From Okibacterium sp. HSC-33S16 (lineage in GTDB: Bacteria; Actinomycetota; Actinomycetes; Actinomycetales; Microbacteriaceae), in the NCBI RefSeq assembly GCF_024171565.1, contig NZ_JALJZZ010000003.1, positions 124,001 through 188,000 of the forward strand: a DNA stretch of 64,000 bases, read 5' to 3'. Under the pieces are notes generated by a model. It worked only from the letters and a program-made list of their open reading frames with translations, was not told the DNA's origin and did no database searches. Made by a program: the position numbers and the translations under genes. Shown in pieces: positions 36,834-40,895 of the stretch (position 1 is the first letter of the stretch; the number at the start of each line of letters is the position of its first letter).

Positions 36834-36954
36834 CGCCAGACCACCACTCTCTCCGTTGATATGAGCAGCAGCGACATCCGTGGGAAGCGCTGCCAGATCC
36901 AGTTATCAAGCCTAACTCCTTTAGCGGAAGGCTGCGGCCCGCTGATCGGATGAG

Positions 36955-36960
36955 TAGCGT
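36955..36960 (+). promoter_or_regulatory. -10 hexamer TAGCGT for guaB1
   Basis: Seven nt before ATG 36968. An earlier in-frame ATG at 36950 lies upstream of it. Confidence 0.5.
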
Positions 36961-36967
36961 GTTCACT

Positions 36968-38407
36968 ATGGAGTTCTACGGTCAGGAACCAGTTTTCGAT
37001 CTCACCTACTCGGACGTCTTCCTCGTGCCGTCACGTTCGGACGTGGCGTCACGGCTCGACGTGTCGCTCGCGCCCAATGACGGCACCGCCGCCCAGATCC
37101 CAATCGTGTCGGCGAATATGAACTCGGTGACCGGTCCACGCCTGGCCGCAACACTGGCCAGGCGCGGCGGACTCGGCGTGCTGCCGCAGGACATGCCGCT
37201 GCAGGAACTTGATGCTGCCATTCGCTGGGTCAAGTCACAGCCGGTCGAATACGACACCCCGATCGAGCTGGCTCCCGACGCAACGGTCGCTGATGCGCTG
37301 CTCGTGACGCCGGCTCTCGCCGGGCACGGCATCGTCGTGAAGTCGACGGCGGGGGAGTACCTCGGTTGCGTGCCGGCAGCGCTGCTCGGTGACAGCGCGC
37401 CAGACACGAAACTCGGTGAGCTGCTTTCCGGCCGGCTCACCTCGATCGACGCCGAAGACGTCACCGACCCGCGCAGCGCGTTCGACCTGCTCGTTGCCGC
37501 CGACCTCGACTTCGCTCCTGTGCTTCGGCACGGGGCGCTCGTCGGGACCCTCTCGCGTACAAGCGCCCTGCGCGCGACGCTCTATCGGCCGGCGCTTGAC
37601 GCTTCGGGTCGGCTCATTGTGGCGGCGGCCATCGGCATCAACGGTGACGTCGCCGCGAAGGCGCGGGCACTCGCCGCGGCCGGAGTGGACGTGCTCGTCC
37701 TTGACACGGCGCACGGTCACCAGGAGGGCATGCTCTCAGCCCTTGCCACCGTGAAGAGCCTGCGGCTCGGTATCCCGCTCGTCGCCGGAAACATCGTCAC
37801 CCCGGTCGGCGCGTCCGACCTCGTCTCTGCCGGTGCCGACATCCTCAAGGTCGGCGTCGGCCCCGGTGCCATGTGCACCACCCGCATGATGACGGCTGTC
37901 GGTCGTCCCCAGTTCTCCGCAGTGCTCGAAACGGCGGAGTCCGCCCGCGACCTGGGCGTGCACGTCTGGGCTGACGGCGGCGTCCGGTATCCCCGTGACG
38001 TCGCGTTAGCCCTCGCTGCCGGAGCATCGAGCGTGATGATCGGTTCCTGGTTCGCCGGCACCATCGAAGCTCCAGGATCGTTGCACACGGATGCCACGGG
38101 GCGGCTTTTCAAGGAAAGCTGGGGCATGGCATCCACCAAAGCGGTTCAGGAGCGGTTCGGCCGCCTTGACCCGTATGAGCTGGCACGCAAAACGCTGTTT
38201 GCCGAGGGCATTTCGTCGTCGAAGATCTACCTCGACCCAGGCCGGCCGAGCGTGGAGGACCTGCTCGACATGATCACATCAGGCGTGCGTTCATCGTTCA
38301 CCTACGCCGGAGCATCCACTCTTCCCGAATTTTGGGAACGCGCTCGGGTGGGACTGCAGTCCGCCGCGGGCTACGACGAAGGCAAAGCGCTGCCGGTGTC
38401 CTGGTAG
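36968..38407 (+). CDS. guaB1: GuaB1-family IMP dehydrogenase-related protein (GMP reductase type)
   Basis: 479 residues starting MEFYGQEPVFDLTYSDVFLV, as in the family. An (alpha/beta)8 barrel with a CBS pair inserted (residues ~85-215). The active-site loop GVGPGAMCTTRMMTAVGRPQ carries the catalytic Cys; DTAHGHQ and ADGGVRYPRDVALALAAGASSVMIG bind substrate and phosphate. Mycobacterial GuaB1 is reported as a GMP reductase in purine salvage rather than an IMP dehydrogenase, and the same is inferred here. Confidence 0.9.
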   Translation: MEFYGQEPVFDLTYSDVFLVPSRSDVASRLDVSLAPNDGTAAQIPIVSANMNSVTGPRLAATLARRGGLGVLPQDMPLQELDAAIRWVKSQPVEYDTPIELAPDATVADALLVTPALAGHGIVVKSTAGEYLGCVPAALLGDSAPDTKLGELLSGRLTSIDAEDVTDPRSAFDLLVAADLDFAPVLRHGALVGTLSRTSALRATLYRPALDASGRLIVAAAIGINGDVAAKARALAAAGVDVLVLDTAHGHQEGMLSALATVKSLRLGIPLVAGNIVTPVGASDLVSAGADILKVGVGPGAMCTTRMMTAVGRPQFSAVLETAESARDLGVHVWADGGVRYPRDVALALAAGASSVMIGSWFAGTIEAPGSLHTDATGRLFKESWGMASTKAVQERFGRLDPYELARKTLFAEGISSSKIYLDPGRPSVEDLLDMITSGVRSSFTYAGASTLPEFWERARVGLQSAAGYDEGKALPVSW

Positions 38408-38447
38408 CGAGCACACCGCGTCAAGCGGAAATTCAGGCTCGGCTGCG

Positions 38448-38453
38448 TATACT
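38448..38453 (+). promoter_or_regulatory. -10 hexamer TATACT
   Basis: The best -10 in this 126-bp gap. It places transcription start near 38460, within a few nt of the leader ORF ATG at 38464. Confidence 0.5.
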
Positions 38454-38463
38454 GGCTTGCACA

Positions 38464-38544
38464 ATGGACGACCCCCCTCCTGCCGATTCGCCCGACGCTC
38501 ATCAACCTGTCCTCCCCGCCCGGGAGGTGACTCGTGCTGTTTGA
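38464..38544 (+). CDS. Possible 26-residue Asp/Pro-rich leader peptide overlapping the CNNM gene
   Basis: MDDPPPADSPDAHQPVLPAR and six more residues. The first ten codons give three Asp and four Pro, including a Pro-Pro-Pro run. The ORF spans the GGGAGGTGA binding site of the next gene and stops (TGA 38542-38544) 8 nt after that gene's GTG, so translation of the two must interact. Acidic/proline-rich leaders destabilise ribosomes at low Mg2+ in the E. coli mgtL system, and the downstream genes are CNNM-type ion transporters. Not recognised as an annotated gene. Confidence 0.4.
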   Translation: MDDPPPADSPDAHQPVLPAREVTRAV

Positions 38545-39853
38545 GTGGATCATGCTCGGCGTCGGACTTCTGCTGACCGTGGGCACCGGCCTCTTCGTGG
38601 CGAGTGAGTTCTCGCTCGTCAACCTCGACCGCTCAGAGCTCGAGGCACGCCAGGCTCGGGGTGAGACCCGGCTCGGCATGACCATCGCCGCGTTGAGGAT
38701 CACATCGACGCACCTCTCGAGTGCCCAGCTCGGCATCACGCTCACCACCCTGCTCACCGGTTACACCATGGAGCCGGCGATCACGAGCCTGCTCTCGCAG
38801 CCGATGCTCGCGATCGGTTTCCCCGAGGTAACCGTTGAGCCCGTGGCCACGGTGACCGCCATCATCATTGCGACCCTGCTGTCGATGATCATCGGCGAGC
38901 TCGTGCCCAAGAACTTTGCGCTGGCGCTGCCCATTGCAACCGCGAAACTCGTCGTGCCGTTCCAGACGCTGTTCACCACCGTGTTCAAGCCGGCCGTCGT
39001 TGTGCTCAACGGCAGCGCCAACGGCATCCTCCGCTCGATCGGTATTGAGCCCAAGGAAGAACTGTCCGGAGCCCGGACGGCCGAGGAGCTGTCGAGCCTC
39101 GTTCGCCGCAGCGCCGGCGCCGGCACGCTCGAGAGCGACACCGCGACCCTGCTCAACCGCACACTGCTTTTCTCGGGTCACACGGCGGCCGACGTCATGA
39201 CCCCGCGCCCGCGGGTTGAAGCGGTGCGCCGCGGCGACTCGGCACAGCTTGTGGTCGAACTGGCCCGAAGCACCGGATACTCCCGCTTCCCGGTGATCGA
39301 CGAGGACGCCGATGACGTCGTTGGCCTCGTGCACATCAAGCAGGCCATCGCGGTCCCACGCGCCAAGCGAGCTGATGTTCCGGTGTCTGCCCTGCAGTCG
39401 GAGATTGTGCGGGTGCCGGAGACCATGCGCCTCGACGCCCTGCTTTCCGAGCTCCGCGGTCGCGGCTTCCAGATGGCCGTCGTCGTCGATGAGTACGGTG
39501 GAACGGCCGGCATCGCGACCCTCGAGGACCTCGTCGAAGAACTCGTCGGTGAAGTCGCCGACGAGCACGACCGCACCCGCGCCGGAGTGGTTCGCACCCT
39601 CGACTCGATCGCCTTCCCCGGTGACCTTCGTCCAGACGAGCTGCTCGAACGCACCGCCATTTCGGTTCCCGAAGACGGTCCGTACGAAACCGTCGCTGGT
39701 TTCGTGATGAGCGAACTGGGACGGCTGCCCCTGATCGGTGACACCGTCGAGATCGACTCGGGGACGTTGCGCGTCGAACGCCTCGACGGCCGCCGGATTG
39801 ATCGCATCCGTTACACCCCCAACCCCGTGAAGGAAGAAGCCGAAAATGAGTGA
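38534..39853 (+). CDS. CNNM/CBS-domain (CorC/HlyC-type) membrane protein, first copy
   Basis: 439 residues from GTG with GGGAGGTGA 3-11 nt upstream. DUF21/CNNM transmembrane domain (three or four helices, residues 1-170; VASEFSLVNLDRSELEARQARGE), a CBS pair (~205-335; MTPRPRVEAVRRGDS, DEYGGTAGIATLEDLVEELVGEV) and a CorC/HlyC transporter-associated domain (~350-425). Family members handle Mg2+ or Co2+ efflux. Overlaps the second copy by 8 bp. Confidence 0.9.
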   Translation: MLFEWIMLGVGLLLTVGTGLFVASEFSLVNLDRSELEARQARGETRLGMTIAALRITSTHLSSAQLGITLTTLLTGYTMEPAITSLLSQPMLAIGFPEVTVEPVATVTAIIIATLLSMIIGELVPKNFALALPIATAKLVVPFQTLFTTVFKPAVVVLNGSANGILRSIGIEPKEELSGARTAEELSSLVRRSAGAGTLESDTATLLNRTLLFSGHTAADVMTPRPRVEAVRRGDSAQLVVELARSTGYSRFPVIDEDADDVVGLVHIKQAIAVPRAKRADVPVSALQSEIVRVPETMRLDALLSELRGRGFQMAVVVDEYGGTAGIATLEDLVEELVGEVADEHDRTRAGVVRTLDSIAFPGDLRPDELLERTAISVPEDGPYETVAGFVMSELGRLPLIGDTVEIDSGTLRVERLDGRRIDRIRYTPNPVKEEAENE

Positions 39854-40895
39854 CTGGGCCGGAATCGCCTGGCTTGTCGTCCTGCTCCTCGGCAACGCCT
39901 TCTTCGTTGGAGCCGAGTTCGCGGTCATTTCGGCCAAGCGCTCACAAATTGAACCGCTCGCCGAGCAGGGCAAACGCAGCGCCATCACGGCGCTGTGGGC
40001 CATGGAGCACGCGACGCTCATGCTCGCGACCAGCCAGCTCGGCATCACCGTGTGTTCGCTGCTCATCCTCAACGTGTCTGAGCCGGCCATCCACCACCTG
40101 CTCGAGGTGCCCCTCGGCCTGACCGGTTTGCCCGAGGAAGCTGTCGGAACCGTCGGCTTCGTGGTGACGCTGCTGCTCGTCTCGTACCTGCACGTGGTGT
40201 TCGGCGAGATGGTGCCGAAGAACCTCTCCTTCTCGGTGCCCGATCGAGCCGTTCTGCTGCTCGCGCCTCCGCTCGTTTTCGTGGGTCGCGTGTTCAAGCC
40301 GGTGATCTGGGGTCTCAACGCGGCGGCGAACGCCGTACTCCGGTTGTTCCGGGTCGAACCGAAGAACGAGGCAGCATCCACCTTCACACTCGACGAGGTC
40401 GCGAATATCGTCGACCAGTCGACGCGTGAGGGCTTGCTGCTCGACTCCACCGGTGCGTTGCTGGCCGCGTTCGAATTCACCAACAAAAAAGTCATCGACG
40501 TCGCGCTTCCGCTGGAGACCCTCGTCACCCTGCCGGAGAACACCACTCCGGCCGACGTGGAGCGCTCGGTCGCCAAGTACGGCTTCTCCCGTTATGTGAT
40601 CGTCGATGCGAACGGGTTGCCGTCGGGGTACCTGCACCTCAAGGACGTGCTTCGGCTGGATTCGGGTGTCGACGACGGCGATTCCGACCGGCCGGTGCCC
40701 GCCAAGCGCATCCGCCAGCTGGTGTCGATCTTCGAGGACACCGACCTCGAAGACGCCCTGGCCATCATGCGGCGCTCCGGCGCCCACCTCGCCCGTGCCT
40801 TCAACAGGGAGGGCGACACCACCGGTGTGCTCTTCCTCGAAGACATCATCGAGGAGCTGGTCGGTGAGGTTCAGGATGCCACGCAGCGGCGTTAG
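39846..40895 (+). CDS. CNNM/CBS-domain membrane protein, second copy
   Basis: 349 residues. Same CNNM transmembrane domain (FFVGAEFAVISAKRSQIEPLAEQGKR) and CBS pair (~220-345; LFLEDIIEELVGEV) as the upstream protein, but it lacks the C-terminal CorC/HlyC domain. The tandem arrangement suggests a heteromeric ion transporter. It ends 4 bp inside the convergent oxidoreductase gene. Confidence 0.9.
   Translation: MSDWAGIAWLVVLLLGNAFFVGAEFAVISAKRSQIEPLAEQGKRSAITALWAMEHATLMLATSQLGITVCSLLILNVSEPAIHHLLEVPLGLTGLPEEAVGTVGFVVTLLLVSYLHVVFGEMVPKNLSFSVPDRAVLLLAPPLVFVGRVFKPVIWGLNAAANAVLRLFRVEPKNEAASTFTLDEVANIVDQSTREGLLLDSTGALLAAFEFTNKKVIDVALPLETLVTLPENTTPADVERSVAKYGFSRYVIVDANGLPSGYLHLKDVLRLDSGVDDGDSDRPVPAKRIRQLVSIFEDTDLEDALAIMRRSGAHLARAFNREGDTTGVLFLEDIIEELVGEVQDATQRR

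Follow-up and report, generated by a model that had tools for sequence, protein, structure and literature searches.

The question raised by this locus is what a reading frame of 26 codons, which begins with acidic residues and prolines, does at the start of a gene for a CNNM-type ion transporter, whose Shine-Dalgarno (SD) sequence it covers and whose first codons it overlaps. The original prediction considered this frame to be a candidate Mg2+-sensing leader, from which ribosomes would drop off at low Mg2+, reducing re-initiation on the CNNM gene, and which would favour that gene when fully translated at high Mg2+. The locus lies within the window, by which is meant the whole stretch of 64,000 nucleotides from Okibacterium sp. 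HSC-33S16 that was analysed. As described below, the layout of the leader resembles a built-in translation switch, which could sense the stability of the ribosome.

Read again directly in the sequence, the upstream open reading frame (uORF) of 26 codons, the TATACT element 10 nt before its ATG and the first residues MDDPPP are all present as predicted. The same applies to the covering of the SD, which lies inside the uORF, to the TGA placed 8 nt beyond the GTG of the CNNM gene (38534-38536), and to the identity of the downstream gene, as its product carries the Pfam domains CNNM, CBS and CorC_HlyC. The features are collected in the table.

Features of the leader and its surroundings, in positions of the window
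Feature	Positions	Strand	Basis
GuaB1-family GMP reductase gene, upstream neighbour, outside the switch	36950..38407	+	NCBIfam NF052358 GMPRedGuaB1
-10 element TATACT, 10 nt 5' of the uORF ATG	38448..38453	+	sequence; spacing kept in relatives
Leader uORF, 26 codons and TGA, MDDPPPADSPDAHQPVLPAREVTRAV	38464..38544	+	sequence, conservation
Conserved leader start M-D-D-P-P, proposed early-elongation gate	38464..38478	+	MDDPP in 78 of 86 loci
SD of CNNM gene 1, GGGAGGTGA, within the uORF	38522..38530	+	sequence
Overlap between the 3' end of the uORF (TGA 38542-38544) and the first four CNNM codons, start codon included	38534..38544	+	aligned end point
CNNM gene 1 (CNNM, CBS, CorC_HlyC), proposed target	38534..39853	+	Pfam
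CNNM gene 2 (CNNM, CBS), 8-nt overlap with gene 1	39846..40895	+	Pfam

Considering the spacing of the -10 element, the transcript start is predicted at about 38461-38464, which would make the uORF leaderless or near-leaderless. A consensus scan of 38200-38700 found no match to the full -35/-10 sigma-70 consensus; thus, the promoter call is based on the -10 element and its kept spacing. In addition, the frame of the uORF is also open 5' of its ATG, being part of a 70-codon ORF from a TTG at 38332, so that openness alone is no proof of coding, and the proof comes from conservation. Regarding the upstream neighbour, it scores 752.6 bits against NF052358 GMPRedGuaB1 (cut-off 675), and a guaB1-like ORF ends at most 400 nt 5' of the uORF in 66 of the 86 loci compared below.

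Conservation was followed in 86 CNNM loci of Microbacteriaceae, comprising 83 best matches and three from the second CNNM locus in Mycetocola. The relatives are the best 80 of 406, so the set is tilted to close ones, and its loci share kinship, which means that counts of sequences are not counts of independent events. The closest named relative among those best 80 is M. zhadangensis, whose CNNM is 94% identical; second copies (L027-L029, of L006, L008 and L010) were left out of the counts. The search motif, looked for in the 260 nt upstream of each CNNM start, was ATG-Asp-(Asp/Glu/His)-Pro or ATG-Glu-Pro. It is the widened form of a narrower one that missed L033, L063, L065, L071 and L090, and it catches their MDEPP and MEPP starts. 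One site was found in each of the 86 loci, against 0.26 loci expected by chance from shuffles of the same regions, and the motif combined with a -10 element occurs in 0 of 8600 shuffles. The element TAnnnT is placed 9 nt (31 loci) or 10 nt (55 loci) before the ATG, which accounts for all 86. As to whether the leader would hold in close relatives, the condition on which the original prediction could have been refuted, it does: within the family the Asp/Pro start is kept, and so are the spacing of the promoter and the overlap with the start of CNNM.

The leaders begin with MDDPP (78 loci), MDEPP (four), MDHPP (two), MDDPL (one) or MEPPS (one). Residue 2 is Asp in 85 and Glu in one, residue 3 is Asp in 79, Glu in four, His in two and Pro in one, and residue 4 is Pro in all 86, frequencies that depend on how the ORF was found, since Asp2, Asp/Glu/His3 and Pro4 are built into the motif; residue 5, which was free in the search, is Pro in 84. 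Among residues 2-6, two are acidic in 83 loci and at least one in every locus, and two or three are prolines in 85, both being partly a condition of the search. The first five codons are written as 21 different 15-mers but encode only five peptides, which shows selection at the peptide level. Likewise, the uORF frame has two stops in 2235 codons, compared to 78 in 2234 and 95 in 2158 in the other two frames. Beyond the first residues the sequence is poorly conserved, the uORF being 15 to 63 codons long and its ATG lying 37 to 181 nt from the aligned CNNM start. In the middle of the leader (38500-38530), many relatives carry CATAGA, CATAAA or CATAGT and GTGAC, giving stops in the two other frames, at a place where the window itself has CATCAA. 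It was also observed that the nearest stop in the CNNM frame precedes the aligned start by exactly 18 nt in 37 of the 86 loci.

The end of the uORF is as constant as its beginning. In 75 of the 86 loci it stops at a single aligned point inside the CNNM start, the others comprising six ends of GTGA type, two at +4, one at +16 and two upstream with no overlap (L074 and L090). The TGA is formed by the wobble base of the codon preceding a conserved Glu of CNNM, and this position is T in 76 of 86 loci. When the 68 loci having an M-x-E start were compared with the codon usage of the same genes, the 18 loci that lack it being left out, this codon ended in T in 61, against 4.8 expected; each of the next eleven CNNM codons is T-ended in at most eight of 86. 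Judged by these codons, the stop/start overlap is kept against codon usage and is under selection, which is the signature of coupling. One of the exceptions, L074 of Clavibacter, has a leader that shares the common frame for its first codons only and is then cut short by an early stop, while its sister L072 overlaps fully.

A second CNNM gene follows in all 86 loci, overlapping the first one by 4 nt in 48, 8 nt in 36 and 1 nt in two. With overlaps of 4 or 8 nt in 84 loci, the operon forms a continuous series of overlaps, along which the coupling could be passed on from CNNM gene 1 to gene 2; in the window, the start of gene 2 is found within the end of gene 1 at 39846-39853 (ATGAGTGA). On the comparative evidence, therefore, the ORF is coding, and its DDPP start, promoter spacing, stop/start overlap and tandem overlap are established features of the locus. 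The SD of the CNNM gene is below -8 kcal/mol in 67 of 85 loci, and these strong SDs of their own make independent initiation possible as well. L090, in which a CNNM start codon is absent near the expected place, was left out of this and of the structure counts, which have 85 rows.

As for the protein encoded by CNNM gene 1, PF01595, PF00571 and PF03471 are above their cut-offs. Its best NCBIfam matches stay below the cut-offs (GldE 158.2 of 376 bits, PaeA 148.8 of 500 and CorC 123.5 of 379), so the product falls under the curated scores of the Mg2+/Co2+ (CorC) and polyamine (PaeA) exporter equivalogs. The relatives with a solved structure are CorC 4hg0 and 7m1t/7m1u, the latter deposited as 'Hemolysin, contains CBS domains'. 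The CNNM gene product is a probable, still putative, ion exporter of magnesium type.

Within the family, the leader motif appears to be specific to CNNM genes. The sequence ATGGAYGAYCCNCC has nine occurrences in six Mycetocola genomes, all nine just 5' of CNNM, and the reversed control has none. Searching 149 family genomes, TAnnnT-N10-ATG-D-D-P gave 64 hits (reversed control, four), 59 of them at a listed CNNM gene, and TAnnnT-N9-ATG-(D/E)(D/E)-P gave 44 (reversed control, five), 39 of them at a listed CNNM gene; together, 98 of 108 hits are at CNNM, compared to nine hits for the reversed controls. A 99th hit adjoins a CNNM gene found by tblastn (L285). Reading 30 loci from the N10 search resulted in 28 leaders before CNNM, one fusion (L258) and one hit inside another reading frame (L237), and 30 loci from the N9 search comprised 28 leaders and two that are not (L269 and L293). 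The second-codon preference of leaderless genes, tried as a control in the own genome, was uninformative (six hits against eight reversed).

Counted per genome, the strict motif is present, with the fusion included, in 93 of the 136 family genomes that have a CNNM place among the matches listed, and absent from 43. The other 13 of the 149 genomes stay outside this tally, 12 having a match beyond those listed and one having none; among the second-locus CNNM genes in the matches listed, it is found in five of 14. Forty of the 43 genomes with no strict motif were read, leaving out G384, G376 and G318. By eye, 34 of the 40 have another uORF from ATG or GTG that carries Asp or Glu at residue 2 or 3 and whose end either falls on the CNNM start or immediately precedes it, examples being MDDHSPCP, MTDDHSHSPEPEP and MGEPPSESADP. 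Of the remaining six, L309 has an acidic uORF from a TTG start only (by eye), L329 only a doubtful six-codon ORF, and in L306, L326, L332 and L333 the -10 element immediately precedes CNNM, with no uORF between them.

A different outcome was observed in one genome, G309, in which a TAGAAT element lies 10 nt before ATGGACGACCCTCCGTCTGCC and the frame continues into CNNM (MDDPPSAELLLLIAGLLLTVGTGLFVASEF). MDDPPSA is then the N-terminus of CNNM itself, behind its own -10 element. In this fusion, a single case, ribosome loss at DDPP could only lower CNNM, which favours the direction of the original prediction, namely that more drop-off means fewer complete passages and less CNNM.

The uORF layout is more widespread than its DDPP form. 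Under a strict layout rule, requiring a uORF from ATG, a -10 element 9-10 nt before it and a stop between -5 and +14 of the CNNM start, it was found in 36 of 67 loci of the order outside Microbacteriaceae, against 0.14 expected from shuffles, and in one of 33 loci sampled from the class outside this order, against 0.04 expected. In the order, the uORF peptides vary by family and many are non-acidic (MKRKYRD, MSSSSRC, MSRPRP), and Asp or Glu at residue 2-3 occurs in 14 of the 36, compared to about 7% in shuffles. The labels f4, f17, f18, f23, f25 and f43 are working labels of families. In f4, eight of nine loci (L120-L122, L202, L203, L215, L221 and L224) have a leaderless CNNM and no uORF, with a -10 spacing of 8-10 nt; together with the four of 40 family genomes mentioned above, this indicates that the gate is dispensable.

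The loose motif ATG-GAN-GAN-CCN-CC is unspecific across the order, with 125 hits against 131 for the reversed control in 59 genomes. Among 20 such hits picked by eye, L157, L160 and L164 are leader-like, all of them before genes of the CNNM family; among the rest were segments lying in frame within long ORFs, as well as short ORFs with no CNNM next to them. In L160 (f43), the MDDPPHRP frame has its end at the start of a gene that is CNNM-like but, judged from sequence, of a different type. In other orders, uORFs that are alike within a family were seen by eye before CNNM, with the -10 element at 9-10 nt absent: MDGSSCSTCAAP (f18), MDGSQS- or MDESQS-like (f23) and MNDSGDTGCS-like (f17), and MDGSSCSTC was seen too (loci L151, L153, L126, L127, L131, L135, L138, L123-L125, L132 and L139). 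PDDPPSR and PDEPPSR stretches were also noticed by eye in upstream ORFs before CNNM in L137 and L141 (f25).

At the RNA level, no conserved fold was found in the 85 leader-CNNM segments (mean z +0.11, with 3.5% below -2), and no SD masking, the openness of the SD being 0.31 in the native sequences and 0.30 with shuffled upstream sequence. The GGGAGG of the SD is, in the window, complementary to CCTCCC at 38511-38516, so that the two can pair; no SD-masking fold is kept in the relatives. Pairing of CCTCC with the SD was rejected as a general explanation, as the duplex with the own SD is stronger than with the SD of other species in only 43 of 85 loci. A riboswitch was likewise rejected, there being no match at the gathering score to any Rfam family in the window, including M-box and yybP-ykoY. 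A third candidate, programmed frameshifting or fusion into CNNM at the Pro codons, was discarded because the CNNM frame is closed between the uORF ATG and the CNNM start in 78 of 86 loci and open in eight.

The codons of the leader start have their own pattern. CCT and CCC codons are read by the tRNA with a GGG anticodon, and Pro4 and Pro5 are encoded by CCT 99, CCC 52, CCG 18 and CCA one time of 170, compared to CCT 42 times of 1764 in CNNM bodies. Ser6 is TCT in 52 of 57, against 32 of 2180 in CNNM bodies. In the window the codons of Pro4, Pro5 and Ser6 are 38473-38481, positions that favour U and shun A at the wobble base. Compared to synonymous recodings, the leader codons give a 5' end with less structure in 78 of 86 loci, and this structure avoidance explains the low GC of codons 4-6, but not the choice of U over A.

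Taken together, the original interpretation is supported in part, and a mode of action can be proposed, to which about an even chance is given: a near-leaderless leader would carry a drop-off gate at DDPP, and its overlapping stop would feed two overlapping CNNM genes. Transcription would begin 0-4 nt before the uORF, as the -10 spacing implies, and ribosomes would initiate on the nearly leaderless frame, meeting Asp-Asp-Pro-Pro as the first four residues after Met. At that moment the exit tunnel would be empty and the ribosome held least firmly, so that part of the ribosomes would drop off, and more of them when free Mg2+, or Mg2+ and polyamine, is low. That Mg2+, alone or with polyamines, would set the drop-off is suggested by analogy with MgtL and MgtQ. 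The surviving ribosomes would open the SD en route, reach the overlapping stop and undergo termination-reinitiation on CNNM gene 1, with gene 2 coupled likewise; plentiful cations would then mean more exporter. The Asp and Pro residues are fixed at the N-terminus, with CNNM at 37-181 nt, an arrangement that suits a drop-off gate more than a stall at a set position. To open or close a structure, a stalled ribosome must be at a constant distance from it, which is not required of a gate that sets ribosome throughput. A wider claim, held tentatively and at somewhat below an even chance, is that this distance-independent gate evolved in Actinobacteria independently of MgtL. In that case, the fragility of ribosomes at DDPP would serve as a cation meter, coupled to a two-gene CNNM exporter operon whose output would increase with Mg2+ and need no riboswitch, regulator protein or conserved RNA fold; in one lineage the meter would have become part of the transporter.

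Other explanations have to be weighed against this gate. The leader might be a standing translational feeder, giving a constant level of CNNM with no sensing, in which DDPP is kept for start efficiency or peptide turnover. The spread of the layout through much of the order, with peptides that differ between families and sometimes lack acidic residues, is as expected for a feeder, and so is the weakly structured 5' end, which a leaderless start needs; this reading nevertheless seems unlikely, because four near-invariant residues with free synonymous sites, the exchange of Asp for Glu and the retention of MDDPPSA in the fusion point to a role of the peptide. The prolines could themselves be the sensor, if polyproline slowing with EF-P, charged tRNA-Pro or m1G37-dependent reading of CCC/CCT set the passage of ribosomes. 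Nearly all codons at Pro4 and Pro5 belong to the GGG-anticodon tRNA, and models based on EF-P and proline codons have been published for mgtL/mgtA, as far as the accessible parts of those sources tell. Since Ser6 has the same bias for U, however, the bias extends beyond proline and may reflect avoidance of 5' structure, and several variants within the family keep the acids with no Pro at positions 4-5 (MDDHHH, MDDTSS, MDDAHS), which makes proline decoding quite unlikely.

The sign of the response could also be the opposite, with ribosomes on the uORF masking the CNNM SD and early drop-off freeing it, so that CNNM would go up at low Mg2+. The strength of this SD and its position within the uORF in the window would suit such masking, but the overlap kept against codon usage is a signature of coupling, drop-off can only lower the fused CNNM of G309, and the overlapping leader YoaL promotes mgpA in the accessible part of PMC12421838; the reversed sign is therefore improbable. 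A regulator based on RNA structure, of riboswitch type, would use the complementarity of the CCTCC of codons 4-5 to GGAGG, for which the pairing segment in the window gives an example. It is very improbable in view of the fold and openness values and the Rfam result given above, and since the leader-SD duplex, which surpasses that with foreign SDs in only half of the loci, surpasses synonymous recodings in only 15 of 85. As for a micropeptide with its own function in trans, the conserved first five residues could belong to one; a remainder of such variable length and poor conservation, and the position of nearly all strict hits in cis to CNNM, make it the least probable of these readings.

Compared to known systems, the proposed drop-off gate has partial counterparts in enterobacteria. 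In the accessible part of PMC11282234, the EPDP motif of MgtL causes ribosome loss at low Mg2+, and this leader acts via Rho-dependent termination, raising an importer at low Mg2+. MgtL, the mgtA leader of E. coli and Salmonella, is similar in being short and having acidic residues and Pro right after Met, a likeness of described features and not of aligned sequences; it differs in its Rho termination and importer target, compared to the stop overlap, near-leaderless uORF, CNNM target and reverse direction proposed here. According to the available text of PMC8092293, Asp2 and Glu5 of MgtQ impede its own translation and set the translation of a Mg2+ transporter. MgtQ, which precedes a Mg2+ transporter gene in the mgtC-mgtB intergenic region of Salmonella, is also a tiny uORF with early acidic residues, although it has eight codons and alternative stem-loops at the mgtB ribosome-binding site, whereas no conserved fold was found here and the target is overlapped. 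By this analogy, the leader would work like E. coli MgtL and Salmonella MgtQ, with an apparently opposite output.

The nearest parallel for the target was found in PMC12421838. In its accessible part, high Mg2+ is described as inducing corC in Salmonella and also, provided that the pH is neutral or alkaline, mgpA; the YoaL leader overlaps mgpA and promotes it, loss of the YoaL start codon lowering the protein, with the signal left open. YoaL is thus, like the leader described here, an overlapping leader of a cation protein with a CorC domain (mgpA/yoaE); it differs in being enterobacterial and in that MgpA has a TerC membrane domain, the comparison being one of descriptions and not of sequences. 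YoaL and YoaE are not mentioned in PMC7815308. A destabilising N-terminus has also been suggested to make CorC rise with Mg2+ (PMC12421838, accessible part), and this N-terminus of CorC/YbeX resembles the fused MDDPPSA-CNNM of G309. Among actinobacteria, the mycobacterial M-box uORF (Rv1805A, pe20 operon) is a small uORF too, and one related to Mg2+ homeostasis, but it is riboswitch-controlled and mycobacteria-specific and has no acidic gate in the described parts of PMC12810186, a paper in which the term CNNM is absent.

Consequently, the idea that a CorC-type protein increases with Mg2+ through destabilisation has already been published as an enterobacterial hypothesis (PMC12421838, accessible part), and what is new here is a conserved actinobacterial leader of that design, specific to CNNM within its family. 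No earlier description of a uORF before CNNM was found in searches of the open-licence PMC literature, outside which most subscription papers lie. If the proposed gate is true, ribosome destabilisation by the nascent chain would be a cation sensor far beyond enterobacteria, in which coupling replaces termination and the sign of the output suits an exporter. The family also offers a natural test system, with dozens of leaders varying in length and composition, losses and one fusion, which bears on how general nascent-chain sensing is. In a broader sense, the finding indicates that CNNM genes are preceded by a uORF across a large part of an actinobacterial order.
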